Of a stretch of 64,000 nucleotides of DNA, positions 1-16,176 are shown in pieces. The stretch lies in assembly GCA_030148805.1 (NCBI GenBank), contig JASBSS010000035.1:248001-312000 (forward strand). The letters run 5' to 3'. The translations under genes were made by a program, and so were the position numbers. A model generated the notes under the pieces. It made no database searches and was not told the DNA's origin. It saw only the letters and a list, made by a program, of their open reading frames with translations. Every line of letters begins with the position of its first letter. The stretch's first letter is position 1. This DNA is from Thiogranum sp. Lineage in GTDB: Bacteria; Pseudomonadota; Gammaproteobacteria; DSM-19610.

Positions 1-250
1 CATCGTCTACACCGATATCAGCCGCGACGGCATGATGCAGGGGCTGAACGTGGAGGCGACGGCGAAACTGGCGGCGGAAGTGAGCATTCCGGTGATCGCC
101 TCGGGGGGCATCAGCACCCTCGACGATATCAGCGCGCTGCTGGCGGTGGCCGACGAAGGGATTACCGGGGTGATTATCGGGCGGGCGCTGTACGAGGGCA
201 CGGTCGATCTGGCCGCCGCGCAGAAGCTGGTCGAAGGCGCCCGGGGTTAG
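1..250 (+). CDS. hisA: HisA, ProFAR isomerase, 3' part only
   Basis: This is the C-terminal part of phosphoribosylformimino-5-aminoimidazole carboxamide ribotide isomerase, a (beta/alpha)8-barrel enzyme of histidine biosynthesis. The first full codon is at base 2. The visible end carries the barrel motifs [11 protein letters not shown] (catalytic Asp region), VIASGGIS (phosphate-binding Gly-rich loop) and [11 protein letters not shown] (second phosphate site), all characteristic of HisA. hisF starts 4 bp after the stop, so the two are co-transcribed. The 5' part lies outside the window. Confidence 0.95.
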
Positions 251-254
251 TCAG

Positions 255-1034
255 GTGCCGCTGGCCAAACGCATCATCCCTTGCCTCGACGTGGATGCCG
301 GCCGCGTGGTCAAGGGGGTGAAGTTCGTCGATATCCGTGACGCCGGCGATCCGGTGGAGATCGCCAGGCGTTACGACGCCGAGGGCGCCGACGAACTGAC
401 CTTCCTCGATATCACCGCCAGTCACGAGCAGCGCGACACCATGGTGCACGTGGTGGAGCAAGTCGCCGGAGAGGTATTCATCCCGCTGACGGTGGGCGGC
501 GGCATCCGCGAGCTGGCCGATATCCGGCGCATGCTCAACGCCGGCGCCGACAAGGTCGCCATCAACACCGCGGCGGTGTCCAACCCGGAATTCGTGCGCG
601 CCGCCGCCGAGCGTTTCGGTTCCCAGTGCATCGTGGTCGCCATCGATGCCAAGCAGGTCGACGACGGCGTGCAATCCGGCCAGCCGCGCTGGGAAATCTT
701 CACCCATGGCGGGCGCAAGCCGACTGGTCTGGACGCCGTCGAGTGGGCGCGCAAAATGGCCGCTTACGGCGCCGGCGAAATCCTGCTGACCAGCATGGAC
801 CGCGACGGCACGCGCAACGGCTTCGACCTGGCCTTGACGCGCGCGGTCAGCGACGCGGTCGACGTGCCGGTGATCGCCTCGGGCGGGGTGGGGAAGCTGG
901 AGGATCTGGCCGAGGGCGTACTCGCCGGCGGTGCCGACGCCGTGTTGGCGGCCAGTATTTTCCACTTCGGCGAATACAGTATCGCCGAAGCCAAGCGGAC
1001 CCTGGCCGCACGCGCCATCGAGGTCCGGTTGTGA
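255..1034 (+). CDS. hisF: HisF, imidazole glycerol phosphate synthase cyclase subunit
   Basis: The 259-residue product is the normal HisF length. It forms imidazole glycerol phosphate and AICAR from PRFAR, with ammonia supplied by HisH. The start is GTG, 4 bp after the hisA stop. Visible motifs are [15 protein letters not shown] at the N-terminus (catalytic Asp11 equivalent), GGGIRE in the middle, the second catalytic Asp in [11 protein letters not shown], and the phosphate loop PVIASGGVG. The gene sits in the order hisA-hisF-hisI-hisE, with a 124-bp gap before hisI. It is cytoplasmic and shows nothing unusual. Confidence 0.97.
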
Positions 1035-3994: not shown

Positions 3995-4771
3995 TTATGG
4001 TGTCGGCGAAAGCGGGCCGCCACCGGCACCCATGCGGCGGATCGAGATGAGCGGCTCGCTCGCCGCGTCCCGCTCGGGGTGGCGCACGGCGACCCGCACC
4101 GGCGACAGGTGGGGCGTGGCAAGCTCGTCGGGCGCGAGGCTGCACTGGTCGTTGTCGACCTGAATCCATCCGTGCGCCAGGTCCAGGCCCAGGGTCAGAA
4201 CCTGATCCTCGGCCGCCTGGATGACCTCCTGCAGGCAGCGGCCGATCGCGGCCCGGCGCTCGACCTCGAGCCCCTGCGCCGACCAGCATGACAGCGCGCG
4301 CAAAACCCCTGCCGAACCGATGATATGGTAATGGGCCATCAGGCGTTCGTAGACCGTCGCCCCGCCGTGGCGCTCGATGAGGGTTTGCATGATCATCCGG
4401 TTGCTGGGTCTGCGGGGCATCTCGTCGGGTGGCAGGTCGGGGGGGAGAAAGTCGGCCAGGCGCTCGCCGCAATCGCCGCCCAACATCAATTCCTCCACCA
4501 TGAGAGACATACTGGAGTGCGTCGATACCCCGCAACGAAGGGCGTGGAGAGCCACGGCGACGGCTTCGTTGCGGTGACCGCCGATACCCAGCCCGCACAG
4601 CCGGTGATCGACGATATCGTGCACGAACACCGACGTGTCCGAACGTTCACCGACAAACGCCGTCGTCGCGATCACCCGGGGGTCGCCCATTGTCGACGCC
4701 AGTTTCCACCCGCGCGCGCCGAATCCATCCTCCCACTCAGAGCGGTAAACGACATCGACAATGGCGGCCAT
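3995..4771 (-). CDS. Unrecognised protein, last gene of PPOX-GST operon
   Basis: 258 residues from the ATG at 4771, which has a GAGGAGG 8 nt upstream; the longer frame to 5011 runs antiparallel through the GST gene and is not credible. I do not recognise the family. The central part has a striking HDIVDH ... GIGGHRNEA stretch (residues about 51-70) with closely spaced His and Asp that could bind a metal, and there are several cysteines. No signal peptide or membrane helix is seen. It starts 13 bp after the GST stop and probably belongs to the same MarR-controlled transcript as the PPOX and GST genes. Confidence 0.7.
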   Translation of the reverse strand: MAAIVDVVYRSEWEDGFGARGWKLASTMGDPRVIATTAFVGERSDTSVFVHDIVDHRLCGLGIGGHRNEAVAVALHALRCGVSTHSSMSLMVEELMLGGDCGERLADFLPPDLPPDEMPRRPSNRMIMQTLIERHGGATVYERLMAHYHIIGSAGVLRALSCWSAQGLEVERRAAIGRCLQEVIQAAEDQVLTLGLDLAHGWIQVDNDQCSLAPDELATPHLSPVRVAVRHPERDAASEPLISIRRMGAGGGPLSPTP

Positions 4772-4784
4772 GGGATCGCCCTCC

Positions 4785-5396
4785 TCAGGCGACGTTCTGG
4801 GCGCGTTCCAGCATCGGAACGTAGCCCGGTAAGGACTCGATAGCCTCGAACCAGCGGCGGATGTTGGCATAGCCCCGCAAGGACAGATCGGCCTCCTCGG
4901 CGCAGCGCACGTACGGGTAGCAGGCGAGGTCCGCCAGGCTCGACTGTTCACCGGCGAGCCACGGCGAGCGCTCCAGTTGCGACTCGAGCAGATCGAGCGC
5001 GGCCACCCCACGCTTTTGCAGTTCCTGCAGATCGCCCTGGCGGCCGAACTTGAGGCAGGCCCGGGCAGCGGCCAGGCCGTACTGGATTTCGTGTCCGGCG
5101 ACGGCGAGCCACTGCTGCACCCGGCTCATGAGCAGCGGATCGGCCGGCAGCCAGTGGCCCGCGTCATAGCGGCGGGCGAGATACACCAGAATCGCGTGGG
5201 AGTCCCAGACGACTGTGTCGCCGTCCACCAGCACGGGGATTTCGCCGCGGGGATTGAGCCGCAGGAATTTCTCGGTCAGGTGCTCTCCCGATGCCAGATT
5301 GACCGGCACGCGTTCGTGTTCCAGGTTGAGCATCGACAACAGCAGTCGAGCCTTGTAGCAGTTTCCGGAGACATCCAGGTCGTATAGTGTGAGCAT
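4785..5396 (-). CDS. Glutathione S-transferase family protein
   Basis: 203 residues from the ATG at 5396, which has a GAGGAG about 6 nt upstream; the ATG at 5411 overlaps that ribosome site. The N-terminal thioredoxin-fold domain has LYDLDVSGNCYKARLLLSML, the cis-Pro motif GEIPVLVDGD and the glutathione-contacting WDSHAILVYLA. The C-terminal helical domain ends with a conserved WLAGEQSSLADLACYPYV segment. It could conjugate glutathione to, or isomerise, an organic substrate. It is the middle gene of a three-gene unit (PPOX-GST-unknown) divergent from the tautomerase/AsnRS-like operon. Confidence 0.9.
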   Translation of the reverse strand: MLTLYDLDVSGNCYKARLLLSMLNLEHERVPVNLASGEHLTEKFLRLNPRGEIPVLVDGDTVVWDSHAILVYLARRYDAGHWLPADPLLMSRVQQWLAVAGHEIQYGLAAARACLKFGRQGDLQELQKRGVAALDLLESQLERSPWLAGEQSSLADLACYPYVRCAEEADLSLRGYANIRRWFEAIESLPGYVPMLERAQNVA

Positions 5397-5417
5397 GTCG
5401 CTTCTCCTCATAGTTGT

Positions 5418-5948
5418 TTAGGTGTTGGGTTCGGTGGCAGGGATCAGGTGTGGAATGCGTCGTGTGCAGTTGCGTATGACTTCCTCGATTTCGATGCTTA
5501 CGATCAGCCTTGCATTCTCCCAGCGGGTACCGAGCGGGTGTTGCTTCGCGTCCGTCACTTCAGCCCGCCCGTTGATCTTCAGACGGCGTCGGCTCTCGAA
5601 GGAAAGCGCGAGCAGACCGATATGCGGATTGGACAGCATGTTGCCTACCGACAGCATCAGATCGTTGCCTGGAAATTCCGGATAGCAGAGCCTCGTTCGC
5701 GTCTCGGCGATCAGGATGCCGGGGCCACCGCCCTTGAAGTTGCATTGAAGGCGGCCGTTGTGATCCGCCGTGGCCACGAAGAAGAAGGGCAAGGTCTGTA
5801 GGAAGGCGACCTGCTCCTCGTCGAGCTCCGATATCGAGGGCATGGCATTGATGATCCTGTCTGCCCGATCCGGGTCGGCGAAGCGGCTTTGTGCCTCGAG
5901 GGTGCCCTGGTGGAATACCCGGCTTGCGCGTGAATCCGTCGTGTTCAT
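5418..5948 (-). CDS. Pyridoxamine 5'-phosphate oxidase-like FMN-binding protein
   Basis: A 176-residue split-barrel flavoprotein. Residues about 47-75 (FLQTLPFFFVATADHNG ... NFKGGGPG) and LCYPEFPGNDLMLSVGNMLSNPHIGLL match the PPOX-like family that binds FMN (or haem/F420) and reduces small organic molecules. It is the first gene of a leftward operon. A -35 TTGACG (6005-6010) and -10 TACAAT (5983-5988), both on the minus strand with 16-bp spacing, precede it, and a palindrome identical to the block's consensus covers the -10. The substrate is unknown. Confidence 0.85.
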   Translation of the reverse strand: MNTTDSRASRVFHQGTLEAQSRFADPDRADRIINAMPSISELDEEQVAFLQTLPFFFVATADHNGRLQCNFKGGGPGILIAETRTRLCYPEFPGNDLMLSVGNMLSNPHIGLLALSFESRRRLKINGRAEVTDAKQHPLGTRWENARLIVSIEIEEVIRNCTRRIPHLIPATEPNT

Positions 5949-5982
5949 GTCTCGACCTCATACCGTCCAGTCTGCATGTATG

Positions 5983-6010
5983 ATTGTACATACAAAAGAA
6001 CTGTCGTCAA
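5983..6010 (-). promoter_or_regulatory. Promoter of PPOX operon with operator site 1
   Basis: On the minus strand, TTGACG (6005-6010), a 16-bp spacer and TACAAT (5983-5988) form a sigma70-like promoter 35-60 bp before the PPOX start codon. The palindrome TTGTACATACAA (plus strand 5984-5995) overlaps the -10, the position expected for a repressor. A further partial half-site, TGCATGTATG, sits at 5973-5982. The same palindrome recurs at four other promoters of this block. Confidence 0.65.
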
Positions 6011-6067
6011 CCGGTAACAGTTTGAGTGCTTGAGGCAAATTTTAAACGTCCGTTAACAAAAACCCTC

Positions 6068-6096
6068 TTGACAGCGTCCCGCGTGTACGTACACTT
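6068..6096 (+). promoter_or_regulatory. Promoter of tautomerase gene with operator site 2
   Basis: TTGACA (6068-6073), a 16-bp spacer and TACACT (6090-6095) precede the tautomerase gene. A perfect 12-bp palindrome, GTGTACGTACAC (6083-6094), fills the end of the spacer and the -10 box. Its core TGTA-N2-TACA is shared with sites 1, 3 and 4. The transcript leader would be about 105 nt. Confidence 0.65.
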
Positions 6097-6207
6097 CCAT
6101 GCAGCGTCAATGAATGACGCGCCGGCACCCACCGCCGCCAGGCACCATCTTCGCTTGCCGCCGGGGACAAAACAGGAACGCCGGAATCTTCTATGGAGGG
6201 AGTGAAA

Positions 6208-6429
6208 GTGCCGTATGTCAATATCCGTGTCACCAACGAGAAGCTCACCAGGGAAAAAAAAGCCGAGCTCATTGCCGGCGTCACCCAGCTTCTGGTAACC
6301 GTCCTCGACAAAAATCCCGAAACCACCGTGGTCATCATCGATGAAGTCGATACCGACAACTGGGGTATCGGCGGACAGACGGTGACGGTGCGCCGCGCTC
6401 CCAAGACCGACGAAAAAGCCTCTCCCTGA
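6208..6429 (+). CDS. 4-oxalocrotonate tautomerase-like protein
   Basis: A 73-residue small tautomerase. The GTG at 6208 is the likely start: it follows a GGAGGGAG by about 7 nt and places Pro directly after the initiator Met, giving the catalytic N-terminal proline of the 4-OT superfamily (MPYVNIRVTNEKLT). The upstream ATG at 6193 would bury that proline. The ETTVVIIDEVDTDNWGIGG segment matches the oligomer-forming second half. 4-OT enzymes tautomerise enol/keto acids, commonly in aromatic degradation. It has its own predicted operator-controlled promoter and is followed by a second one. Confidence 0.88.
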   Translation: MPYVNIRVTNEKLTREKKAELIAGVTQLLVTVLDKNPETTVVIIDEVDTDNWGIGGQTVTVRRAPKTDEKASP

Positions 6430-6442
6430 TTTTGTGGTCCGC

Positions 6443-6501
6443 TTGACACCGGATTTGAGTGGCTCTTCAATCATATGTATGTACAACCAATAGTTAGGAG
6501 G
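6443..6501 (+). promoter_or_regulatory. Promoter of AsnRS-like operon, operator site 3, strong RBS
   Basis: TTGACA (6443-6448), a 17-bp spacer and TTCAAT (6466-6471) form a probable promoter. TGTATGTACA (6476-6485) lies over the expected transcription start and is an 11/12 match to the block's palindrome when flanks are included. AGGAGG at 6496-6501 is a near-ideal ribosome site 5 nt before the ATG at 6507. Confidence 0.6.
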
Positions 6502-6506
6502 TTTAT

Positions 6507-7766
6507 ATGGATGCGCTATTTGCCGAGAACAACGATGCCCGCGAAGCTCTGTTGATGAGGGGCTGGCTGGAATCCGTCGAGTCAGCCGGCGATGGTGAGA
6601 CGATTATACGGGTGCGTTCCGACAACGCTATCCGTGGTGCCGTGCTCGCCGCCGAGATCGTGGACGTCGGTGAGACGCCGCTGCAAAGCGTCGTCGAGGT
6701 CTACGGCTACCTCGACGAGCATAGCGACATGGGTGTCGCGACGTCGGTGGAGGTCGTCAATCGTGCCGAGCAGTTGCCAGTCGATCTGGAGTGCCCCGAT
6801 CTGGGCAACGATCGCTACCGCCATCTCCACCTGCGCACGCCGGCATTGCGCGCGGCCGTGATGTTTCGTCACTACGTGCAGAAACACGCCCGGTCATTTC
6901 TGGAGGACCGCGGCTTTTTTCACGTCCATACGCCGATCATGACCGAAGCCTCCTGCGTGTGCAGCGGCGATGTCTTCACCTTCCCCTACTACGACAAGAA
7001 AATCGCGACCCTGATCCAGAGTCCTTGGATGTACGCCGACTCCCTGGTCGGTAGCGTGGAAAAAGTCTACGCTCTGAATCCGTCATTCCGCCGGGAGAAA
7101 ACGGCGACCACGACCCACCTGGTCGAGATCTGGCAGCTACAGGTCGACAGTGCCTGGGAGACCAACGAAAGCGTGATGGCGTTGGAGGAAACCTTGGTGC
7201 GGACCTTGGCGCGGGAGTTTCGCCAGCAGCACGGCGATCTCTATGCGCTGGCCGGATTGAGCATGGATCACCTGGCCGCCTTCGAGCAGCCCTATTCCCA
7301 AATCCGCTATCGCGAGGCCGTCGAGCGGATTCGTGCCCTGGGCTTCGCCATGGAATACGGTGACGATTTCGACGACCAGGCCTTGTACGCGCTGGGTCAG
7401 GAGTTCGCCGCGCCGTTCTTCGTGACCCATTATCCCAAGCGTCTGAAGAACTTCTGGTTTCCTTCCTTGGAGGCGGATCCCGAACTGACCCCATCCAACG
7501 ACTTGTTCGCCCACACCGGTCACGGCGAAATCATCGGTGGCGGCGAACGCGTCAGCAGCGCGCAGGAGCTGGCGAGCAATCTTGAATATTACGGTCACGA
7601 TCTCGAGGAATTCGACTGGTTTCTGGAGACGCGCAGGTTCGGCTGTGTACCGCATGCCGGATTCTCCATCGGCTTCGACCGTTTGACGGCCATGTTGATG
7701 GGGACCGATCACATCAACAAGGCCACCGTCTATCCCCGGCTGCCCCACGGCGGTCTCAGGCCGTGA
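6507..7766 (+). CDS. AsnRS/AspRS-like class II aminoacyl-tRNA synthetase paralogue
   Basis: 419 residues with the full class IIb layout: an N-terminal OB-fold-like region (about 15-90), motif 1 (FLEDRGFFHVHTPIMTE, 131-147), motif 2 (FRREKTATTTHLVEIWQL, 194-211), an EIIGGGERV segment (341-349) matching the AsnRS EIIGG(S)QRE, and motif 3 (GFSIGFDRL, 385-393). ATP and amino-acid activation therefore look intact. The gene sits first in a ten-gene metabolic operon under a MarR-type operator rather than with translation genes. It may be a dedicated enzyme (amide- or ester-forming ligase, or a source of charged tRNA for a pathway), or simply the cell's AsnRS moved here. Confidence 0.85.
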   Translation: MDALFAENNDAREALLMRGWLESVESAGDGETIIRVRSDNAIRGAVLAAEIVDVGETPLQSVVEVYGYLDEHSDMGVATSVEVVNRAEQLPVDLECPDLGNDRYRHLHLRTPALRAAVMFRHYVQKHARSFLEDRGFFHVHTPIMTEASCVCSGDVFTFPYYDKKIATLIQSPWMYADSLVGSVEKVYALNPSFRREKTATTTHLVEIWQLQVDSAWETNESVMALEETLVRTLAREFRQQHGDLYALAGLSMDHLAAFEQPYSQIRYREAVERIRALGFAMEYGDDFDDQALYALGQEFAAPFFVTHYPKRLKNFWFPSLEADPELTPSNDLFAHTGHGEIIGGGERVSSAQELASNLEYYGHDLEEFDWFLETRRFGCVPHAGFSIGFDRLTAMLMGTDHINKATVYPRLPHGGLRP

Positions 7767-7810
7767 GCCGGAACTCAAGCCCATCACTTGCTGGAAAAAG
7801 GAGAGGAAAT

Positions 7811-8809
7811 ATGGAAATTCACGTCCCACTGCCGTCGATAGCGGAGTTGCCGGAGCCGCGTTCATGGCGCCACGCGGTGAGCATCATCGACGCCCACGAG
7901 CCGCGTATCACCGAGCTGGCTTCACGCGCCTTCGAGGCCGATGAGCCTGGCGCCTGGTATGACGTACAGTGCATCCTGTATCACTGGAATCTGGAGGAGC
8001 TGGAGCGCAAGACACCGGTCACCAGCTACCCCCGAGCCGTGCGCCAGGCCTTGCGTAACGCGATTCTGCGCGTCGAGGAGAAGGTCCGGCGCTCGACCCT
8101 CGCGCTGGACTGCCTGAGTGATTTTTCGCCCGAGGCGGCGATCGTGGAACTGGAGAAAATCGCCCGTGGCCACCGCATCAATTCGCATCCGCTGCTCAAT
8201 CAGATGGAGGCGAACGGGCTGGATCAGGACGCCTGCCGGTTGCTGTTGGACAACTACTATGTGAACAACCGGGTGTTCCATCTGCACATCGCCGCGCAAA
8301 GTTTGTCCACACCCTTTGAATTGCGCGCCGAACTCTACCAGAACCTTCACGACGAGCTGGGCGCCGGCAGCGCCAGCGAGGCGCACCCGCTGCTCTTCCT
8401 GCGCAGCTACAACTCCCTGGGTGGCCATGATCGCATGGTCGAACCGCTGGTGGGCGCGATTCATCTGCTCAACACCAAGATCTATCACACCCTGTTGTGC
8501 GGCAACTACCGCAACGGCCTCGGCGCGCTCGGGTTCCTGGAGCTGACCATGCCGACGCAGATGAGAAAGCTGCTGGCCGGATTCCAGAAGTCGGGGCTGT
8601 CGCAGGAGGAGACCATCTTCTGGGATCTGCATATCAGCCTGGACGAGGAACATGGCGACGCCTGGTTCGACGAGATGAAGAAGATTCTGAAGACGCCTGA
8701 AGACGCGCTCGCGATTCTCGACGGCGGCCAGTCGGTATTGGATGCGCGTTCCGCCTTCTATGACTCGGTCTACGAAGTCTTGCAGGCGCGCCAGGGTAAA
8801 GCGGCCTGA
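7811..8809 (+). CDS. Haem-oxygenase-like di-iron oxidase (HDO) family protein
   Basis: 332 residues from the ATG at 7811, which follows GGAGAGG by about 6 nt. The C-terminal two thirds match the iron-containing TenA/haem-oxygenase-like fold. Visible are the NNRVFHLHIAA helix (H157, H159), the family hallmark NLHDELGAG (E182) followed by H192, and H274-x3-D278-x2-H281 in HISLDEEH. That spacing equals the H-x3-D-x2-H ligand set known in CADD-type members. I cannot place the first Glu ligand with confidence. Characterised relatives use O2 to oxidise or cleave amino acids and fatty acids (BesC, UndA, SznF, CADD). The substrate here is unknown. Confidence 0.85.
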   Translation: MEIHVPLPSIAELPEPRSWRHAVSIIDAHEPRITELASRAFEADEPGAWYDVQCILYHWNLEELERKTPVTSYPRAVRQALRNAILRVEEKVRRSTLALDCLSDFSPEAAIVELEKIARGHRINSHPLLNQMEANGLDQDACRLLLDNYYVNNRVFHLHIAAQSLSTPFELRAELYQNLHDELGAGSASEAHPLLFLRSYNSLGGHDRMVEPLVGAIHLLNTKIYHTLLCGNYRNGLGALGFLELTMPTQMRKLLAGFQKSGLSQEETIFWDLHISLDEEHGDAWFDEMKKILKTPEDALAILDGGQSVLDARSAFYDSVYEVLQARQGKAA

Positions 8810-8827
8810 GGCCGCGCTTTCGGGTTT

Positions 8828-8872
8828 GGGAGGATCCGGGAAACGCCATGGACGGTGGTCCCGGGTCTTCCT
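8828..8872 (+). other. Long intergenic hairpin between HDO and HAD genes
   Basis: About 14 bp (with three or four G-T pairs) join 8828-8841 to 8859-8872, with a further 4-bp inner stem, filling most of the 80-bp gap. No T-run follows, so it is not a typical terminator. It could stabilise the upstream mRNA segment or attenuate the downstream genes. The HAD ribosome site GAGGA follows directly. Confidence 0.55.
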
Positions 8873-8889
8873 TTCCATGAGGAACGCTG

Positions 8890-9561
8890 ATGTCAATCAA
8901 AGCCATCGTCATCGACGTCGGGCACGTGCTGGTACAGGGAAGCCTGCTCAACGGCATTCTCCGGGAGCGCTACCCGGATCTGCGGCCGAAGGTACTGTAC
9001 GACCCCGAAGTCTACCGTCAGGTGGGCGTCGAGGGCTTCGATCGATGGGTCGAGTCGGCCATGACGGAGAAGATAGAAATGCTGGCGGCAGACCCCGTCT
9101 CGGCGTCGCTGCGCGCGGCCGAGCGTGTCCCGCTCACGCCCTACGCGGCGGAGTTCATCGCCACGGCCCGCGCCCGTGAGCTGGCGCTGACGTGCATCGG
9201 AGCCGTGCCGGATTTTCTCGTCGCCGATCTTTTGCGTCGACTGGACGCTCAGGTCCCGTTCATCAGCTCGCGCGTGGTGATCGACGGTGATCGGATCAGC
9301 TCGGTGGCTTCGATTCTGACACCGAGCCGAAAGCGCTCTGAGCTACGCAAGTGGAAATACCTGCAAGGACTGGCGCCGAACGAGCTGCTGGTGATCGGCG
9401 ATTCGCTCGGCGATCTGCAGATGATGGAGCTGGTGCCGAGGGACAACCGCGTGGCCTTCAACGCCACCGAAAACGCGGTGCTGGAATTCTGTGCCCACCA
9501 CTACCAGGGATCAATGGACCGTCTGTTGGAGAATGTATTTTATGAACAAGCTATTTGTTAA
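8890..9561 (+). CDS. HAD-superfamily hydrolase
   Basis: 223 residues with a C1-type cap. Motif I is IVIDVGHVLV: the nucleophile Asp (D9) is present but the +2 position is Gly instead of Asp, as in YihX-like members. Motif II lies near VPLTPYAAEF, motif III is a Lys in SRKRSELRKWK, and motif IV is complete (VIGDSLGDLQMM). A phosphatase acting on a small organic phosphate is the default guess. The last 20 bp overlap the flavoprotein gene, showing tight coupling within the operon. Confidence 0.85.
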   Translation: MSIKAIVIDVGHVLVQGSLLNGILRERYPDLRPKVLYDPEVYRQVGVEGFDRWVESAMTEKIEMLAADPVSASLRAAERVPLTPYAAEFIATARARELALTCIGAVPDFLVADLLRRLDAQVPFISSRVVIDGDRISSVASILTPSRKRSELRKWKYLQGLAPNELLVIGDSLGDLQMMELVPRDNRVAFNATENAVLEFCAHHYQGSMDRLLENVFYEQAIC

Positions 9562-11185
9562 TCATCTTATGGGGTCGCCGGCGCAGCCGGATCGCTTTTC
9601 CGAGTTCGCCGCGCCGGCCGAGGCGGGCCCGGACGGATTCACCACCGGCAGTTACGCACCAGGCTTCGCCCTGCTGCAGCAAGGCCGCTTCGAAGTGGTG
9701 GTCAATGGGCGGGTGCGCCATGTCGCTGGCCCGGCGTTTGTCGCCTTCAAGCTCTATGCGCACCTCTCGGCGACGGCGCCGGAGGACCAACCGAAGGCGC
9801 AGCTGTGGCGCGTTGGCGCCGATTATCTGGAAACGCTCAAGCACGACGAGCCCTTCAGCGTCTGTCCCCTCGACGCCAGCCTGAAGGCGGCCCGGCGGGC
9901 GCAACGGCCGGTGCCGATTCTACAGGTGCAGGCCGGCGAGTTTGCCGTCTCGTGCGCCGAAAGCGTGCTCGGGTGGGAAACGCTCACCACCATCGATGGC
10001 GGCCCGGGCGAGGAGACGCTGTCTTATCTGTTGTGGCGGGCGTCGCGGCCGCGACCGGCCGAGATCGCCTCCGAGCTGGTCGGTCTGGCGATCATCGGTG
10101 CCGGGCCGGCGGGACTTTCGCTGGCCGCCTGGGCGCAGGAGCAGGGTATCTCCTATCGCATGTTCGGCGAGCCGCTGTCGTTCTGGAAACGGCATATCCC
10201 GCCCCTGCCGCTGCGCTCGCCGCCGGTGGCGACCAATCTGTCCAGTCCGCGCCCCGGGCAGCGTTATCTGGATTTTGCCGAGCGCCACGGAGTGGCCGAC
10301 GCGCCCAAGGTCGAAATGGAGGATTTTCTCGCCTACGCCACGGAGTTCGCCGACACCCACGGCATCCGGGCGTTGAACCCGCGGGTGCAAACGCTCCATC
10401 ATCGGGACGGCCTCTGGTGGTTGGGCTTTGGCGATGAGCTGCTGCGCGCCAAGAACGTCGCCATTGCCGTGGGTCTCAACGGCGCCCAACGCGAGGTCGG
10501 CCTGCCGCCGGATACGGGCCGCGCGTGGGACTATGTCGGCAACGTGCAGGATTACAGCCGCTTCGCCGGGCGCCGCGTGGCTGTGATCGGCGGCGGCCAG
10601 TCGGGCGTGGAGGCGGCCCTGCTGGCGGCGCAGGCCGGTGCCGAGACCCATCTGGTGATTCGCGAGGACGCGCTCAAGTTCCGTTCGCTGCACGTGCCGG
10701 GCGAATGGTGGTATCGCAACCTGTTCCGGCAGTCGCGACGCCTCACCTCCTGGATGCCCGGACCGGTCCAGGATCGGATGCTGACCTACCTGACGGCCGG
10801 TAGCGCCGAACCGGAAACCGAAGCGCAACTGCAACAGGCCGGCGTGGTGGTGCATCCCCGGGCCGAGGTGCGGGCCGACGGCACTACGCCGGCCCGTTTG
10901 GCGGTTCGCCGATCCTCGCAAGCGGAGATTCCCGTCGATTATGCCATCGTCGCCGCAGGCTTCGCCTACGACGTGCGCCGGATTGGGTTACTGGCGAACC
11001 TGCCCATCGCGCAACGCGGCGGGTTTCCGCTGCTGAACCGGTTTGCGATGTCGTCACAGCCGGGGCTGTTCTTCGCCGGCATGGCGGCCCTGCGGCTGCT
11101 GGGACCGCAGTGTCAGTTCGTGTTCGGGTCCGGTCTAGTCTCGCCGCGGATCATCGCGGGTGTGAAGGACCGATTGTCCAAATGA
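9542..11185 (+). CDS. FAD/NAD(P)-dependent oxidoreductase, monooxygenase-like, with extra N-terminal domain
   Basis: 547 residues from the ATG at 9542, overlapping the HAD gene. Residues 1-175 form an unrecognised N-terminal domain. Then come an FAD-binding Rossmann motif, GAGPAGLS (186-193), and an NAD(P)-binding one, GGGQSGVEAAL (350-360), spaced as in flavin monooxygenases and N-hydroxylases. The segment GEPLSFWKRHIPPLPLRS also resembles that group, which oxygenates N or S atoms or ketones. The C-terminal LFFAGMAALRLLGPQCQFVFGSG is the usual FAD-closing strand. The permease ATG overlaps its stop (ATGA). Confidence 0.85.
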   Translation: MNKLFVNHLMGSPAQPDRFSEFAAPAEAGPDGFTTGSYAPGFALLQQGRFEVVVNGRVRHVAGPAFVAFKLYAHLSATAPEDQPKAQLWRVGADYLETLKHDEPFSVCPLDASLKAARRAQRPVPILQVQAGEFAVSCAESVLGWETLTTIDGGPGEETLSYLLWRASRPRPAEIASELVGLAIIGAGPAGLSLAAWAQEQGISYRMFGEPLSFWKRHIPPLPLRSPPVATNLSSPRPGQRYLDFAERHGVADAPKVEMEDFLAYATEFADTHGIRALNPRVQTLHHRDGLWWLGFGDELLRAKNVAIAVGLNGAQREVGLPPDTGRAWDYVGNVQDYSRFAGRRVAVIGGGQSGVEAALLAAQAGAETHLVIREDALKFRSLHVPGEWWYRNLFRQSRRLTSWMPGPVQDRMLTYLTAGSAEPETEAQLQQAGVVVHPRAEVRADGTTPARLAVRRSSQAEIPVDYAIVAAGFAYDVRRIGLLANLPIAQRGGFPLLNRFAMSSQPGLFFAGMAALRLLGPQCQFVFGSGLVSPRIIAGVKDRLSK

Positions 11186-12498
11186 AGACCGCGCGTGCGT
11201 TCATCCGGCACTGGTTCCCCGGGCTGGCGGTAGTGGCCTATCTGGTGGGTGGCTGGCATTCGCCCGGCCTGTGGGAAGCTGTGGCGGCGGCATTATTGAT
11301 CGTGCGCCTGGCCGCCGGCGACGGTGCCTGGTTGAACAAGACCAGCGGACGTGTCGCACTGGCGATGTTGCTCGGTAGCGCGTTGCTGGCCTCCCGCAAC
11401 GGTCACTGGGACGCCTGGTTTGGCGGACTGGACCGCTATGTCGGGGTGGTCGTGCTGGTGCTGTGCGTGTCCTTCCTGCGCTTGCCCTTGCAGCACATTC
11501 GCATTGGCGGCGCGCGGCAGGCGGGCGGGCGCCGCTCGCCGGTGGCTCTGATCGCCACGGCCTCCTCGGCGGTGTCGCCACTGCTGAATCTGGGCACCAT
11601 CGCCCTGCTCGGCGGATTGCTGCAAACCGAGGGCCGTCAGGCCACGTCCGTGTCGGGCGCGGTGACCCGGGGTGTGGGAGCCGCGCTGCTGGTTTCCCCG
11701 ACCTTCGCCCCCAGCGCCATCGTCCTGAGCGAGCTGCCGGGCGTGAGCTGGGTGAGCACCCTGCCGGTGGCGCTACCCTTGTTCTGCAGCCTGCTGGCGA
11801 TGGCCTGGTTGTGCCAGTCGCGCCAATCGGTGACCTGGACGGCCGCGCGCAGCGATGGCCTGCCGGGCTTTCATCTGCTGCTGGTGATCGCCCTGATGGC
11901 GACGCTGCTGGTGGCGCTGCGGGCGCTGGCCGACTGGTCCATCGTGCATTCGGTCAGTGCCGCGGCCGTCGCCAGTGTATTACTGTGGCGTTGGGTGTTC
12001 GCGCGCACTGGTGCCACGCCCGTGTCGATTCGTCCGCGGCAACACCTGAGCGGCTTCTGGCCGGCGATCGAGGCCGAGGCCGCCTTGTTCCTGGCCTCGG
12101 GGGCACTGGCCGGCATTCTCGCGGCCGACCCCGGCTTTCAGGCGTTCGCACAGTCTTTCGTCGCCGCCGCCGCAGACAGCCCGTTGCTGCTGTTCGTCAC
12201 CGTGCTCGTCGGCATGCCGGCGGTCACCGCGTTGGGTATCCACCCGATCGTCCCGTTTGTGATCCTGGTGCATCTGATCGATGCCGCCACCCTGGGGCTG
12301 GCGAGCGCGCAGATGTACGTGCTGTGGGTGTCGGCATGGGTGTTGGCGATGATGGTCTCGCCGGTATCGGCCATCAATATATCGGCGGCGACTTTTTTCC
12401 GCGTCTCGCCCTGGGTTCTGGGGCTGCGCGAAAACGTACCTTACGCTGCGCTGTTCGCCGCCATCGCACTGGCGCTGTTCACCACCATCGGGAGATAG
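11182..12498 (+). CDS. Polytopic permease, ion-transporter (citrate/anion) superfamily-like
   Basis: 438 residues from the ATG at 11182, overlapping the flavoprotein stop as ATGA. Hydrophobicity suggests 11-12 membrane helices. Paired re-entrant-like segments occur as ASSAVSPLLNLGTIALLGG and GMPAVTALGIHPIVPF, with a VSPVSAINISAATFF stretch near the end. That layout recalls IT-superfamily carriers (DASS, TRAP DctM, CitM) for organic or inorganic anions. The assignment to a subfamily is uncertain. As the only inner-membrane carrier inside the operon it is the best candidate for importing or exporting the system's substrate. Confidence 0.7.
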   Translation: MKTARAFIRHWFPGLAVVAYLVGGWHSPGLWEAVAAALLIVRLAAGDGAWLNKTSGRVALAMLLGSALLASRNGHWDAWFGGLDRYVGVVVLVLCVSFLRLPLQHIRIGGARQAGGRRSPVALIATASSAVSPLLNLGTIALLGGLLQTEGRQATSVSGAVTRGVGAALLVSPTFAPSAIVLSELPGVSWVSTLPVALPLFCSLLAMAWLCQSRQSVTWTAARSDGLPGFHLLLVIALMATLLVALRALADWSIVHSVSAAAVASVLLWRWVFARTGATPVSIRPRQHLSGFWPAIEAEAALFLASGALAGILAADPGFQAFAQSFVAAAADSPLLLFVTVLVGMPAVTALGIHPIVPFVILVHLIDAATLGLASAQMYVLWVSAWVLAMMVSPVSAINISAATFFRVSPWVLGLRENVPYAALFAAIALALFTTIGR

Positions 12499-12501
12499 GT
12501 C

Positions 12502-12861
12502 ATGGAAGACAGTGAGATCAAGCAAAGAACTCTTGGCCTGGTGCTGGGCGCGGATTCCTCCGCGGCCGGGATGCGGGTGGCGCTGCGGCTTGCCGGCTGC
12601 GCCCTAGACAAGGGCATCGCCGTGCAGGTCTTTCTCATCGGAGACGCGCTGGCCATCGCCCTCGATACCCAGAGCAACAAGGCGCCTTTCAAGGCGTTCC
12701 GCTCCCTGTTGCAGCGGGGTGCCGATGTCACCTTGTGTTCGGTCATGCTGCGCGATCGGGGGATACCCACCGCCGCGATCTCGACGCAGGTCACCCAGGG
12801 CTCGCTGCTCTATTTCGCCGAGATGGTGCAGCGCTGCGATCGCCTGCTTTATCTGGATTGA
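12502..12861 (+). CDS. DsrE-family sulfur-transfer-like protein (TusD/DsrE-like)
   Basis: 119 residues, starting 3 bp after the permease stop. The fold signature is an N-terminal LGLVLGADSSAAGMRVALRLA strand-helix, then VQVFLIGDAL, then a conserved cysteine, C79, in ADVTLCSVMLRDRG. This is the position of the persulfide-carrying Cys of DsrE/TusD. The C-terminal FAEMVQRCDRLLYL matches the family. It is followed by DsrF- and DsrH-like genes, so a DsrEFH-like hexamer able to relay sulfane sulfur is plausible. It is not part of a dsrABC locus here. Confidence 0.85.
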   Translation: MEDSEIKQRTLGLVLGADSSAAGMRVALRLAGCALDKGIAVQVFLIGDALAIALDTQSNKAPFKAFRSLLQRGADVTLCSVMLRDRGIPTAAISTQVTQGSLLYFAEMVQRCDRLLYLD

Positions 12862-12872
12862 GGATGGACGTC

Positions 12873-13226
12873 ATGTCGAAATCGATTGTCTTTTTGATCA
12901 CCCGCTCCCCCTTTGCCACCGATCGCCCCTACCACCTCACCCGCATGGCGCTGGCCTTGGCCGTGGACGCCCGGCCGACCTTGTTGTTCAGCGGCGATGC
13001 CTTGCTGATCGACCGGGTGGCCCCGGACAAACTCACCGGTCTGCCGGATCTGGTCGGCCAGCTGCGGCTGTTCGATGAAATGGTCGGCAGCGCCTATCGC
13101 ACCGAGCTGATCGCGCCGACGGCTGACTGGGGGCCGCCCGCGACGCCGCTGGATTATCTCAAATCGCTCAGTCCGTCGCAGGCGCGCGCTTGCCTGCGCG
13201 AGGCCAACGCGGTCATTCGCTGTTAG
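12873..13226 (+). CDS. DsrF/TusC-like protein
   Basis: 117 residues from the second ATG at 12873, which has GAGG 9 nt upstream; the ATG at 12864 lies directly against that site. The N-terminal IVFLITRSPFATDRPYHLTRMALALAVD segment matches TusC/DsrF (normally beginning KKIAFVFRSAPYG-like), followed by LLFSGDALLID. TusC-type subunits are structural partners that usually lack the active cysteine; the Cys residues here lie near the C-terminus (about 109 and 117). It is placed between the DsrE-like and DsrH-like genes in canonical order. Confidence 0.78.
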   Translation: MSKSIVFLITRSPFATDRPYHLTRMALALAVDARPTLLFSGDALLIDRVAPDKLTGLPDLVGQLRLFDEMVGSAYRTELIAPTADWGPPATPLDYLKSLSPSQARACLREANAVIRC

Positions 13227-13238
13227 GAGGATCACCCC

Positions 13239-13481
13239 ATGGCATTGGTTTTATGTCTACACCCGCATTCACCGCAGGCCGCGCTCGGTTGTGGCCTGTC
13301 ACCCGCGCAAGGCGATCTGTTCGTCTGCCTGGAGGACAGCGTGCTGACCGATCCGCCGGACGGCGCGCGGCTCGGCGCGGCGGATCAGGCCGCGCGGGGT
13401 CGCTCTGCCGACGCGTCCGGCCTGCACGACGAGCAATTGCTTGAGCTGATATTCGAACACCCTGTCACATTCATCTGCTAG
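13239..13481 (+). CDS. DsrH/TusB-like protein
   Basis: 80 residues with a GGAGG about 9 nt before the start. LVLCLHPHSPQAALGCGLSPAQGDLFVCLEDSV follows the DsrH/TusB pattern (hydrophobic strand, Ser-Pro, a helix carrying a Cys, then Gly-Asp and an LLIEDGV-like strand). C18 is close to the catalytic Cys20 position of DsrH. It ends in PVTFIC. It completes the trio DsrE-F-H, and its small size is normal for the family. Confidence 0.75.
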   Translation: MALVLCLHPHSPQAALGCGLSPAQGDLFVCLEDSVLTDPPDGARLGAADQAARGRSADASGLHDEQLLELIFEHPVTFIC

Positions 13482-13492
13482 AGGCATTCATC

Positions 13493-13864
13493 ATGGAACA
13501 GACTCAGATCGCCACCGAACCGGCAGCCGTTGCCGTCAAACGGCCCGCGTCGGACTCCTATTACGACATCCACCTGTTCATTTGCACCAATCGCCGCAGT
13601 AACTCGAAAAGCTGTGGCGGCAACGGCGCCGAGCGGATACTGCGCCACGCCAAGCGGCGGGTACAGGCGCTGGAGGACAGCGTCAATCTTAGTATCCGGG
13701 TGAGCTCGTCGGGTTGCATGGGCCGGTGCGAACTCGGGCCCCTGCTGGTGATCTACCCCGAAGGCACGTGGTACCGCTGCAACAGCACGCACGACCTCGA
13801 CGAGATCATCAGCGAGCACGTCATCGGCGGCGGCAGGGCCCAGCGATTGATGGCCTCGCTTTGA
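13493..13864 (+). CDS. Thioredoxin-fold [2Fe-2S] ferredoxin
   Basis: 123 residues. Four cysteines, C31, C41, C75 and C79, have the spacing C-x9-C-x33-C-x3-C typical of Aquifex/Azotobacter-type thioredoxin-like ferredoxins (HLFICTNRR ... SKSCGG ... SGCMGRCELGP). The family's LVIYPEGTWYRC and DLDEIISEHV segments are also present. Its likely role is to pass electrons to an oxygenase such as the HDO or the flavoprotein encoded upstream. It starts 11 bp after the DsrH-like gene. Confidence 0.88.
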   Translation: MEQTQIATEPAAVAVKRPASDSYYDIHLFICTNRRSNSKSCGGNGAERILRHAKRRVQALEDSVNLSIRVSSSGCMGRCELGPLLVIYPEGTWYRCNSTHDLDEIISEHVIGGGRAQRLMASL

Positions 13865-13906
13865 CGCGGATTTCACATCGACCCGACAACAAGATAAGGA
13901 CAGACA

Positions 13907-15223
13907 ATGAGCACGAAAGGACTCAACCGCGTTTTGCGCATCCTCATCGCCGCGGCAAGCTTGGCTGCGCCGGCGGTGAAGGCGGAAAACTGGTTCATCA
14001 AGGACGGTACGGAAAAGCCCGATGCCAAACCGCTGCGCGTCTACGGTTTGGTGCAACCCACCTTCCAGGCCGATTTTTCCGACAAGCTCGAGGGGCTTGG
14101 CGGCGCCGAGGCGCAACACAACGGCGAGCATTCGGCCTATTCCTCGATTCCGCCGGGGCAGAGTTCGACGTCGAGCTTCTACCTGTTCCGGGTGCGCCTC
14201 GGGGTGCGCGGGCTGATCGAGCCGAAGATCAATTATGAAGTCGTCGGCGAGTACGGCGTCAACGCGCTGACCACCAAGGCCCAGAACGACTTCAACGTCG
14301 AGCTGGCCGAAGGCTCGGTCACCCTGAACCACATCCCCGGCGTGCGGGTGCGCATGGGGCTGTTCAAGGTGCCCGGCCCCGAGGAGGCAATGCGCACGGC
14401 GATCGACTACGTCAACTTCACCAATGTGACTTTCCGCCTGATCAATTACCAACCGGTCGAGCGCAACCCCAATGTGAGTTCGCTAAAGGGCGTTCCGGCC
14501 GACGCCAAGACCGGCGTGCGGGCCTTCCGCGACACCGGCGTTCAGCTATTTGACGCCTTTCGTTTCGGTCAGCAGGAGTTCACCTACGCGGCCATGCTGG
14601 CCAACGGCTCATCGCTCAATCAGATCGACGACAACCGCAACAAGGCGGTCTATGGCCGCTTGCAGTGGTCGTGGATATTCGACGACACGCAGGATCATTA
14701 CTACGATACCGCACGTCAGGACCTGAGTCTGTTCGGCTGGTATCAGCGCGGCGATCAGGCCTTTGACGACAAGAACTACAAGGCCGTGCGTCAGGGCGTG
14801 GGTTTCAGTTACGTGAAACAGCCCTACCACCTCACCGCCGAATACATGTGGGGCGAAGGCATGATCGTGCTCTCCTCGTCGTTCCGCAACGAACCCTACC
14901 TGGTGTTTCCGGAGTCCGAGAACGAGGGGCGCGGCTGGTATGTCGACGCCGGCATGTTCGTCACCCGCAACATCGCCCTGGAGGCGCGCTACGACGTGCT
15001 CGAGCTGCTGCCCAACGACCGGCAGATGGAGACGACGTTCAAGACCACCACGCTCGGCCTGCAGTATTATTTCTCCAAGCGCAACCGGATCGCGCTGAAC
15101 TACGAGTTCCGCGATTACGATCTCGCCGCCGTCCCGGTGAGCGCCGAGTTCGCCAATAACACCCGGCAGCTGAATCGATCGCTGGACGACCGCCTGGCCA
15201 TCCAATATACTCTACGCTTCTAA
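13907..15223 (+). CDS. Outer-membrane porin, OprO/OprP-like beta-barrel
   Basis: 438 residues with a signal peptide (cleavage likely after KAE or VKA, residues about 22-26). Alternating hydrophobic strands run through the mature part and the protein ends in Phe (AIQYTLRF), the BAM recognition signature. RVRLGVRG ... NYEVVGEYG and RMGLFKVPGPEEAM resemble phosphate-selective-porin-type barrels. It is the last gene of the ten-gene operon and gives the system an outer-membrane entry or exit route. Solute specificity cannot be read from sequence. Confidence 0.82.
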   Translation: MSTKGLNRVLRILIAAASLAAPAVKAENWFIKDGTEKPDAKPLRVYGLVQPTFQADFSDKLEGLGGAEAQHNGEHSAYSSIPPGQSSTSSFYLFRVRLGVRGLIEPKINYEVVGEYGVNALTTKAQNDFNVELAEGSVTLNHIPGVRVRMGLFKVPGPEEAMRTAIDYVNFTNVTFRLINYQPVERNPNVSSLKGVPADAKTGVRAFRDTGVQLFDAFRFGQQEFTYAAMLANGSSLNQIDDNRNKAVYGRLQWSWIFDDTQDHYYDTARQDLSLFGWYQRGDQAFDDKNYKAVRQGVGFSYVKQPYHLTAEYMWGEGMIVLSSSFRNEPYLVFPESENEGRGWYVDAGMFVTRNIALEARYDVLELLPNDRQMETTFKTTTLGLQYYFSKRNRIALNYEFRDYDLAAVPVSAEFANNTRQLNRSLDDRLAIQYTLRF

Positions 15224-15240
15224 AGATGCATGTACATACA
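15183..15240 (+). promoter_or_regulatory. Possible EamA promoter with operator site 4
   Basis: TGGACG (15183-15188), 17 bp and TATACT (15206-15211) within the end of the porin gene could form a promoter. TGTACATACA (15231-15240), core-identical to site 1, overlaps codons 2-5 of the EamA gene at about +13 to +22. Repression from within the coding start is therefore possible. The promoter boxes lie in coding sequence, so they are less certain than the palindrome. Confidence 0.45.
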
Positions 15241-16176
15241 GAAAAATTCAAGGGCGCGCTGTTTCTGCTGCTGGCGACCACCGCCTGGGGTGGCATGTTC
15301 CCCGTGGCCAAGGAGGCGGTGCAGAGCCTCGACCCCGTGTTCGTGACCCTGGTGCGCTATGCCAGCGTGGCCCTCATCCTGACGGCCATTCTGGGCGCGC
15401 TCGAAGGGCTCGGGGCGCTGGCGCTGGAGGGGCGGGCGTGGCCGCTGGCGCTGTTCGGTGTCTCCGGCATGGTGGGTTTCAACGTGCTCGCCCTCTACGG
15501 GCTGAAATCCGCCGCGCCGGCCAAGGCCGCCATGATCATGTTGACGCTGCCGTTTCTGTCCTCGCTGGTCAAATGGGCGCTCGACGGCACCCGCCCGCGG
15601 GCCGGTCTGTTGGGCTGCATGTTGCTGGCCATGGGCGGGGTGTTTCTGGTGGTGACCCACGGCGACCTCGCCAGCATCCTGCACCAGCGCACGGGCAGCG
15701 GCGAGTTGCTGGTGCTCCTGGGGGCCTGCTTCTGGGCCGTCTACACGGTGGGACGCGAGCGCTTCCCCCATTGGTCGGCGTTGCGCTACGGCGCGCTGTC
15801 CACCGCGCTGGGCTCGCTCGGCCTGATCAGCCTCTGGTCGCTGCTCCTGGCTCTGGGGGTGTTGAGCGTCCCGTCGGCGGCGGCCATCGGGTCGGTGGGT
15901 TACCAACTGGTCTATCTGATTCTGGTCGCCGGGGTGATGGCGATCATGGCCTGGGCGGCGGGCATCAGCCGTGTCGGTGCCGTCAACGCCTCGTTGTTCA
16001 TCTGTTTCGTTCCGATCACCGCTTTCGCGGTGGAGATCGCCCGCGGCTACCGGCCGCACGCGATCGAGCTGGTTGGCGCCTCGATGGCGATCGCCGCGCT
16101 GTTCATCAACCATCATCTGGCCTCGCGGCGGGCCGCGGCGCTGGCCGCGTCCGGGCTCAGTCCGGAGGCGAAATAA
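15226..16176 (+). CDS. EamA/DMT-family transporter
   Basis: 316 residues with ten predicted membrane helices in two EamA repeats; each repeat begins in the family way (LLLATTAWGGMFPVAKEAV, and LLVLLGACFWAVYTVGRERFP). DMT carriers of this type usually export amino acids or other metabolites. The start is 2 bp after the porin stop, and an operator palindrome lies over codons 2-5. The 3' end overlaps the opposing marR gene by 20 bp. An export role for the block's product or a toxic intermediate is inference. Confidence 0.88.
   Translation: MHVHTEKFKGALFLLLATTAWGGMFPVAKEAVQSLDPVFVTLVRYASVALILTAILGALEGLGALALEGRAWPLALFGVSGMVGFNVLALYGLKSAAPAKAAMIMLTLPFLSSLVKWALDGTRPRAGLLGCMLLAMGGVFLVVTHGDLASILHQRTGSGELLVLLGACFWAVYTVGRERFPHWSALRYGALSTALGSLGLISLWSLLLALGVLSVPSAAAIGSVGYQLVYLILVAGVMAIMAWAAGISRVGAVNASLFICFVPITAFAVEIARGYRPHAIELVGASMAIAALFINHHLASRRAAALAASGLSPEAK

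Follow-up and report, generated by a model that had tools for sequence, protein, structure and literature searches.

What does a heme-oxygenase-like dimetal oxidase (HDO) do when it is encoded next to a paralog of asparaginyl-tRNA synthetase (AsnRS), a trio of small proteins resembling a sulfur relay and a ferredoxin? The question is raised by a stretch of 64,000 nucleotides from Thiogranum sp. (GenBank assembly GCA_030148805.1, contig JASBSS010000035.1), referred to here as the window, in which a preliminary description, made from the sequence alone, had picked out an HDO gene in an uncharacterised setting. Characterised HDOs amount to about a dozen functionally validated enzymes among more than 10,000 recognised, and their reactions are widely spread (PMC13108848). 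Our analysis indicates that the gene almost certainly encodes a working dimetal HDO and that it stands in a rare and conserved cluster which is likely to be biosynthetic and to serve a small-molecule pathway, with oxidation of nitrogen as the chemistry that we favour for the enzyme. The HDO itself belongs to a known superfamily, as a new member of a subfamily, and it is the partners that set the cluster apart.

The mechanical open reading frame of the HDO begins upstream of the gene start chosen here, at GTG 7763; we prefer the ATG read in the sequence at 7811 because it agrees better both with the relatives and with the ribosome-binding site. The protein matches the Pfam family Haem_oxygenas_2 (PF14518, iron-containing redox enzyme) at E 1.1e-25 and 90.9 bits against a cut-off of 28.9. 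The preliminary description had named E182, H274, D278 and H281 as ligands of a di-iron-type site, and these residues are correctly numbered; H192 and E244 complete the set E-H-E-H-D-H, of which E182 lies in the stretch NLHDELGAG. All six ligand columns are invariant in 10/10 rows of an alignment (A3) of the window HDO with nine others that are 62% to 19% identical to it, and they are kept even in the members with only 19-23% identity. This alignment excluded broken copies (L014, L010), a locus on the same contig as another (L009, with L016), a weak match (G313, locus L006) and the plasmid matches except H1 and H2. In a profile alignment the six ligands coincide in register with E181, H191, E244, H274, V278 and R281 of FlcD, as numbered in PMC11363339. 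Between the window and a Thiogranum metagenome-assembled genome (MAG, locus L014) the ratio of nonsynonymous to synonymous substitution rates (dN/dS) is 0.052 over the first 110 codons and 0.034 over the last 209, which indicates strong purifying selection, and judged from these comparisons the conservation of the HDO is far beyond chance. The ratio was computed on two separate pieces because the L014 copy (5741-6737) is split over two reading frames, by a frameshift or an assembly error. A sequence search of the window's own genome returned one match, so the HDO is single-copy there. We infer that the metal is most likely di-iron and that the site would use O2.

An AlphaFold2 model of the HDO, built from the window protein and four relatives (pLDDT 85.8, pTM 0.86), contains an N-terminal helical domain at about residues 1-105 (helices 19-42, 46-65 and 73-94). 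Among the best Foldseek matches in the PDB, HrmI came first and FlcD next, with TM-scores of 0.70-0.75 to four HrmI entries. VIA re-alignment gave Z 28.3 over 316 residues for HrmI (17% identity, model residues 7..326) and Z 25.5 over 304 residues for FlcD (model 6..326), followed by RohS (20.4 over 268, model 40-329), CADD (20.4 over 208), SznF (20.3 over 300, model 1-332), BesC (20.1 over 213), PqqC (20.0 over 231) and UndA (18.8 over 220). The N-terminal domain is covered by the HrmI, FlcD and SznF alignments and mostly covered by that of RohS, whereas CADD, BesC and UndA align to the HDO domain alone, at about residues 102-332. HrmI and FlcD match better, and over the full length, than CADD, UndA and BesC, on which the preliminary description had proposed to overlay the structure. 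Its label of CADD-like ligands did not hold up: the pattern E-H-X-H-(D/E)-H, which includes H-x3-D-x2-H, is predicted in about 85% of the HDO groups analysed in PMC11363339, the sacrificial Tyr and Lys of CADD/PabS are absent, and HrmI and FlcD are closer overall. A profile search ranked FlcD (2.7e-18) ahead of HrmI (3.1e-13), BesC (5.2e-11), NePabS (1.4e-9), CADD (0.036) and SznF (about 0.06). D278 and H281 are intact in the window HDO, which therefore does not carry the V278/R281 substitution of the FlcD subgroup. Residues 148-159, where the seventh ligand of the SznF type, a Glu from an auxiliary helix, would be expected, contain no Glu in the window HDO (D147 stands just before).

The HDO gene keeps its company across genomes, and this company includes an AsnRS paralog, a TusDCB-like trio and a tautomerase that the preliminary description of the HDO had left unmentioned. 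What we call context A comprises five loci, namely the window, L014 (Thiogranum sp. MAG), L008 (genome G026), L013 (Proteobacteria MAG) and L015 (Chromatiales MAG), or four if the window and the same-genus L014 are merged; the AsnRS-HDO stretch of L014 is identical, over an overlap of 4,257 bases, to G758, a genome of the window's genus. The AsnRS paralog lies immediately 5' of the HDO gene in 5/5 of these loci, and a flavoprotein, a TusD-like protein and the ferredoxin are each present in all five. A HAD-superfamily hydrolase and a 438-residue protein are found in four each (not in L013; the homologue of the latter forms two open reading frames in L015), as is a porin (only 212 residues in L013, two open reading frames in L014), while an EamA-family transporter and the glutathione S-transferase-like, PNPOx-like and tautomerase genes were each recognised by similarity in three. 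The TusB-like proteins of L008 and L015 and the TusC-like protein of L015 were assigned by position, those in the other loci by similarity. In L015 the strand opposite to that of the AsnRS-HDO pair carries the genes for the porin, the HAD hydrolase, the flavoprotein, the membrane protein, the Tus-like proteins and the ferredoxin, which reach to the contig end; absences in L015 and L013 may partly reflect contig ends. A MOSC-domain gene comes after the HDO in L015. Between the window and L014, dN/dS is 0.070 for the AsnRS paralog, 0.107 for the ferredoxin, 0.120 for the HAD hydrolase, 0.103 for the TusD-like and 0.150 for the TusC-like protein.

Two further neighbourhoods surround relatives of the HDO. 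Context B consists of L017 (Legionella sp. MAG) and L016 (gammaproteobacterial MAG, with the same genes as L009/G166), the order of L016/G166 having two genomes in the collection. At both B loci the HDO gene overlaps at its end with a ferredoxin gene, which is followed by genes for a DUF4286 protein and a nitronate-monooxygenase-family protein (PF03060 E 3.1e-85 in L009, with a homologue in L017); the AsnRS paralog was not matched at these loci. Context C consists of L010 (G128) and a Nostoc plasmid (L020, HDO 36% identical over 89% of the query), and both loci encode an HPP membrane protein, an AMP-binding ligase, a tautomerase, a ChrR-like cupin and a TetR regulator, with the HPP gene adjoining the HDO in L010 only. 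The HDO relative in L010 (9482-10503), beside acyl-ligase, aldolase, tautomerase and cupin genes, has two in-frame stops and is probably a decaying gene or the result of sequencing errors. An adenylate-forming enzyme and a tautomerase thus recur with the HDO in contexts A and C, and a ferredoxin in contexts A and B.

On the searches made, the subfamily is rare. It was found in 7/369 genomes of the class at E <= 1e-10, four of them (the window's included) at 39% identity or more, and 5 HDO loci were confirmed among 58 pattern matches in genome contigs. At the phylum level (E <= 1e-25) only the window's own copy was recovered, in 1/398 genomes, and searches of the orders around G166 (1/2) and G026 (1/31) returned known copies only. 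HDO relatives occur in 22 plasmid records; of the five inspected, only the Nostoc plasmid carries a close one. On a Burkholderia stagnalis plasmid (L030, 2525-11708) a different HDO is grouped with another diiron oxygenase, ketosynthases, acyl carrier proteins and an aldolase, by appearance a separate cluster of the polyketide or fatty-acid type. On a Paraburkholderia aromaticivorans plasmid (L021, 1808-7894) an HDO 23% identical to that of the window neighbours a PGM1-type peptide ligase, a 2-oxoglutarate-Fe dioxygenase, a haloacid dehalogenase and an Asp/Asn hydroxylase-like gene. The setting in the window is uncharacterised, as had been supposed: no described match to the gene context of the HDO was found in the open-licence literature searched, and no paper among the matches listed there combines an HDO with an AsnRS paralog or a TusDCB-type trio.

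The AsnRS paralog matches an archaeal AsnRS (PDB 1x54) at E 2.4e-76, but it reaches only 191.2 bits against the cut-off of 342.6 for asnS (TIGR00457) and also falls below the NCBIfam cut-offs for AspRS and for the asparagine synthetase AS-A. The copies at the four other context-A loci are 47-89% identical to that of the window. Arginines in motif 2 and motif 3 define class II adenylate-forming enzymes, and 5/5 paralogs keep them (R195, together with E197, in motif 2 and R392 in motif 3). The pocket is altered at W174 (in a QSPWMY stretch), A/C177 and Q212, the last of which is found in all five paralogs where two solved AsnRSs have Glu (E228 of PhAsnRS, presumably the residue that recognises the side chain of asparagine), which makes another amino acid or acid the probable substrate. 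Matches occur in 2/20 genomes of the order (E <= 1e-60) and 2/369 of the class (E <= 1e-70), and a plasmid search returned ordinary AsnRS only (29-30% identity, four records). Among the relatives of the paralog in the window's genome (G000) there is no canonical AsnRS; the remaining matches fall in one 802-codon frame (C6, in two pieces) and one 577-codon frame (C14), which from their length and segments look like AspRS and LysRS. GatB is encoded in the window's genome and in 18/20 genomes searched. Because the other relatives look like AspRS and LysRS and GatB is present, the host should not need an AsnRS, and its Asn-tRNA is probably made by transamidation. We rejected the explanation that a housekeeping AsnRS lies next to the HDO by accident, given its position upstream of the HDO in 5/5 loci and the lack of a match in 18/20 genomes of the order; the host GatB and the changed pocket disfavour it further. 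The paralog is thus probably not a housekeeping enzyme.

The preliminary description had suggested that the ferredoxin could supply electrons to the HDO, and this idea is strengthened by its presence in 5/5 context-A loci and by its place immediately behind the HDO in 2/2 context-B genomes. Its cysteines 31, 41, 75 and 79 are conserved in 6/6 sequences, its family profile finds PDB 1f37 at E 3e-23, and it lies on the HDO strand in 4/5 context-A loci, the exception being L015. Characterised HDOs except FlcD need a reductant for multiple turnovers, according to PMC11363339, and MboA has a dedicated redox partner with a flavin and an Fe2S2 cluster (PMC13185094). Because the pairing with the HDO persists while other genes change, the ferredoxin would be its natural electron donor and is the best redox-partner candidate.

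Upstream of the ferredoxin gene lie three small genes in the order D-C-B. The TusD-like profile finds 2d1p_A (yheN), which we take to be TusD, at 1e-5, YchN at 4e-4 and DsrE at 0.08; C79 is conserved in 5/5 proteins and aligns with the Cys of 2d1p_A that is presumably its relay cysteine. For the TusD family TIGR03012 the window protein gave no match and its relatives 2.1e-7 and 3.1e-4, the best reaching 30.9 bits against a cut-off of 89.25. The TusC-like and TusB-like proteins of the window have no direct family match; in L013 the TusC-like homologue matches PF02635 (E 1.2e-6) and TIGR03010 (E 0.0043) and the TusB-like homologue TIGR03011 (E 0.0096), and the remaining TusC- and TusB-like proteins tested gave no Tus match of their own kind. 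The gene order supports both assignments. A canonical TusD is encoded elsewhere in the window's genome (164.9 bits), so the set in the cluster is an extra one. Related 119-residue proteins (150 bits mutual) are encoded near the context-A clusters of L008 (17412-17771) and L015 (12087-12446); that of L008 has a weak DsrE match just under the cut-off and adjoins a rubredoxin-reductase-like flavoprotein gene. The flavoprotein of the window cluster, which the preliminary description had put forward as a further electron source and which is a candidate for that role, has as its best NCBIfam match the disulfide reductase YpdA, well short of the cut-off (52 of 340 bits), with weaker monooxygenase matches, and its model is poor (pLDDT 54, pTM 0.49). 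Relatives at E <= 1e-25 occur in 4/369 genomes of the class, those in G085 and G209 being 30-31% identical. Its residues of about 1-165 (9542-10040) lie outside the family matches and in the low-confidence model are beta-rich, perhaps cupin-like.

HrmI, RohS and SznF are N-oxygenases (PMC13108848), and in the fluopsin C pathway FlcE N-hydroxylates and FlcD acts on the resulting oxime (PMC11363339). Because the nearest full-length enzymes oxidise nitrogen or use N-oxidised substrates, and because a nitro or nitrite step would be in keeping with the nitronate-monooxygenase-family and HPP genes of contexts B and C, we prefer N-oxygenation, and by analogy with its structural neighbours the window HDO has about an even chance of being an N-oxygenase. 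The nitronate-monooxygenase-family genes at both B loci and the HPP genes at both C loci give circumstantial support to a nitro/nitrite theme; one cyanobacterial HPP protein is reportedly a nitrite transporter. Several points weigh against this reading. Proteins of the PF03060 and HPP families also serve in other roles, and the fold alone neither proves a metal nor settles the reaction, since PqqC, which is described as needing no metal (PMC13108848), aligns at Z 20.0. HDOs with identical ligands perform different chemistry (PMC13108848). The profile search places FlcD and HrmI as distant relatives with BesC, which cleaves C-C bonds, close behind, and the single-sequence search puts BesC first. 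In the helix that bears N148, Y149 and H157 the window HDO differs from the HrmI-like relatives L011 and L012, which have Q, E and D. The HDOs of contexts A, B and C may have different substrates, because their neighbours differ; the TusC- and TusB-like assignments are weak at the sequence level; and the AsnRS-HDO pair of L015 is antiparallel to the genes for the flavoprotein, the Tus-like proteins and the ferredoxin.

Taken broadly, N-oxygenation versus carbon chemistry is close to an even bet. In its specific form, carbon chemistry would mean cleavage or desaturation of carbon bonds in an amino acid by the HDO, as with enzymes of the BesC, UndA or VarO/MboA type, with an unsaturated or shortened amino acid as the product of the cluster, and this we regard as possible though tentative. 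BesC is the top match in the single-sequence PDB search (E 1.2e-8) and the best NCBIfam match (NF042919, E 1.2e-9), 3H/3C HDOs do both chemistries (PMC13108848), and the MboA partner with its flavin and Fe2S2 makes a ferredoxin unspecific for N-oxygenation; however, the score of 38 bits is far from the BesC cut-off of 500, and BesC, UndA and CADD align to residues of about 102-332 only whereas HrmI, FlcD and SznF take in the whole protein. A second alternative overlaps with N-oxygenation and is unlikely: oxidative decarboxylation of an amino acid, or carbon excision from it, in the manner of FlcE and FlcD would yield an oxime and then a thiohydroxamate chelator of metal, with sulfur from the TusDCB-like trio in place of cysteine. 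That FlcD is the best profile match, near full length and with almost the same ligand numbering, that two HDOs take part in making fluopsin C, a thiohydroxamate (PMC11363339), and that the cluster encodes a porin and a transporter besides its sulfur-relay-like trio would all suit it, but FlcD is mononuclear with V278/R281 where the window has D278/H281, and this HDO is, by sequence search, a lone copy in its genome. No FlcA-, FlcB- or FlcC-like gene was recognised among the annotated neighbours, for which no dedicated search was made, and no FlcE structure is among the PDB matches of the HDO. Far less probable than any of these is a self-sacrificing p-aminobenzoate synthase of the CADD/PabS type. 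Such enzymes consume their own Tyr (Y27/Y25) and Lys (K152/K159) in CADD/NePabS (PMC11965152), and the Tyr25 and Lys159 positions of NePabS (9pj4; chain numbering offset +21, derived here from F148 and K159) fall on L129 and L254 of the window HDO. The weak match to the CADD family TIGR04305 (E 3.1e-9) scores 36.7 bits against a cut-off of 200, and no folate gene is among the annotated neighbours, beyond which no further search was made. With the sacrificial Tyr and Lys absent, we rejected this explanation.

The purpose of the cluster can be read differently as well. Thiogranum is a sulfur-oxidising genus, one relative comes from a Thiogranum MAG, and the porin and membrane protein could serve uptake, so that the cluster might import or degrade a sulfur or nitrogen compound with the HDO as a catabolic oxygenase, a doubtful option that would be compatible with N-oxygenation. 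DsrEFH does serve sulfur oxidation in Allochromatium (PMC3397948), but an adenylate-forming AsnRS paralog better suits biosynthesis, its distribution is patchy in the order and the class, and the genome has its canonical TusD elsewhere. It is very unlikely that the paralog is a drug-resistant AsnRS for self-protection, with the HDO unrelated to amino-acid activation: antibiotic producers can have a second, resistant synthetase (PMC9437257), but the search of the host, which has GatB, returned no other AsnRS, and the pocket is rebuilt in 5/5 paralogs (W174, Q212).

If the HDO is an N-oxygenase, the pathway could run as follows. In described HDO chemistry O2 is bound at a diferrous site in the form of a peroxide (PMC13108848); likewise, the diferrous site of the two-domain HDO would form such a peroxide and N-oxygenate the amine of a small amino acid to a hydroxylamine, oxime or nitro group, after which the thioredoxin-like [2Fe-2S] ferredoxin would re-reduce the site between turnovers. 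The AsnRS paralog would adenylate a carboxylate, probably that of an Asp- or Asn-like amino acid, and the TusD-TusC-TusB-like trio would deliver persulfide sulfur; the tautomerase and flavoprotein may adjust the product, and the porin and transporters may carry it across the envelope. A sulfur-bearing product is speculative. In an improbable but specific combination of these steps, the HDO would N-oxygenate an amino acid, the AsnRS paralog would adenylate its carboxylate and the TusDCB-type relay would swap AMP for sulfur, yielding a thiocarboxylate or thiohydroxamate-like metal-binding metabolite without a nonribosomal peptide synthetase and without cysteine as direct sulfur donor. Should this be true, a cluster using an HDO, a repurposed AsnRS and a TusDCB-type relay would be the first of its class. 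The gene combination points to an undescribed small-molecule pathway, and the pairing of an HDO with an aminoacyl-tRNA-synthetase paralog and a sulfur-relay-like trio was not met in the literature searched. The cluster also offers a candidate redox partner that accompanies the HDO through changing neighbourhoods, and its few core proteins make reconstitution feasible and the substrate question directly testable.

Table 1. Genes and other features of the HDO locus, in positions of the window.
Feature	Positions	Strand	Basis and remarks
Glutathione S-transferase-like protein	4785..5411	-	PF02798 E 5.6e-15; also in L008, L014
PNPOx-like split-barrel protein	5418..5948	-	PF01243 E 1.4e-8; divergent; also in L008, L014
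4-Oxalocrotonate tautomerase-like protein, 73 aa	6208..6429	+	PF01361 E 1.5e-20; GTG start, then Met-Pro
AsnRS paralog (class II), 419 aa	6507..7766	+	tRNA-synt_2 E 5.4e-56; directly 5' of HDO
Likely ribosome-binding site of the HDO gene, GGAGAGG	7800..7806	+	Read in sequence
HDO, 332 aa	7811..8809	+	PF14518, ligand columns, AlphaFold2 model
HAD-superfamily hydrolase, 223 aa	8890..9561	+	PF12710 E 1.1e-7; 4/5 context-A loci
FAD/NAD(P)H flavoprotein, 547 aa	9542..11185	+	PF13738 E 5.4e-19; 5/5 context-A loci
438-aa protein, membrane protein or permease by sequence appearance only	11182..12498	+	Homologues in L008, L014, L015
TusD/DsrE-like protein, C79	12502..12861	+	PF02635 E 3.2e-8
TusC/DsrF-like protein	12873..13226	+	Homologue in L013 and D-C-B order
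TusB/DsrH-like protein, 80 aa	13239..13481	+	Homologue in L013 (1.6e-7) and position
Thioredoxin-like [2Fe-2S] ferredoxin	13493..13864	+	NF041612 E 6.2e-16 (58.8 of 150 bits)
OprO/OprP-like porin	13907..15223	+	PF07396 E 1.3e-6; 4/5 context-A loci
EamA-family transporter	15226..16176	+	PF00892 E 6.5e-25; also in L008, L014

The stretch 6507-16176 holds eleven co-directional genes that overlap or are separated by gaps of at most 80 bases (Table 1), some of the starts having been chosen by hand from open reading frame coordinates. The tautomerase gene lies 77 bases upstream of the AsnRS paralog and has relatives in L014, L008, L010 and L020. For the 438-residue protein no Pfam or NCBIfam match was found, and none of its homologues scored above a cut-off; its dN/dS of 0.96 (40% identity) was discarded, the comparison being ungapped and the sequences probably shifted. 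An origin as a composition island was rejected, with a G+C content of 0.633 in the cluster and 0.641 in the rest of the window (standard deviation 0.031 over 1-kb pieces), as was a phage or viral origin, with no phage match and 0/60 pattern stretches confirmed in viral contigs. At about 3995-4771, on the minus strand, a conserved protein without a Pfam match is encoded, and its homologue in L013 (16046-16753) flanks the cluster on the opposite side.

Set beside the systems that it resembles, the window HDO comes closest to the lysine N-oxygenase HDOs HrmI and BelK, with which it shares the same six ligands in the spacing E-x9-H and H-x3-D-x2-H, although its identity to HrmI is only 17-19%. It resembles FlcD, of the fluopsin C pathway in Pseudomonas aeruginosa, in the N-terminal domain and in the link to a sulfur-related pathway, whereas FlcD is mononuclear and has V278 and R281 where the final two ligands would be (PMC11363339). 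With SznF and RohS it shares the fold, including the N-terminal part; SznF differs in having an additional Glu ligand as well as a cupin domain (PMC13108848), and its sequence similarity is at noise level (E about 0.06). CADD and NePabS are alike in the fold of the HDO domain and the ligand motif, but CADD is without the N-terminal domain. Like TusBCD and DsrEFH, the trio consists of three small proteins in D-C-B order with the TusD-type Cys in 5/5, but it scores far below the TusB, TusC and TusD cut-offs; no DsrC/TusE-like acceptor was recognised in the cluster annotation, for which no dedicated search was made. The paralog, finally, is AsnRS-like in keeping the class II catalytic arginines and an N-terminal extension that aligns with that of AsnRS, and in this it differs from the asparagine synthetase AS-A, which is described as being without the tRNA-binding domain.

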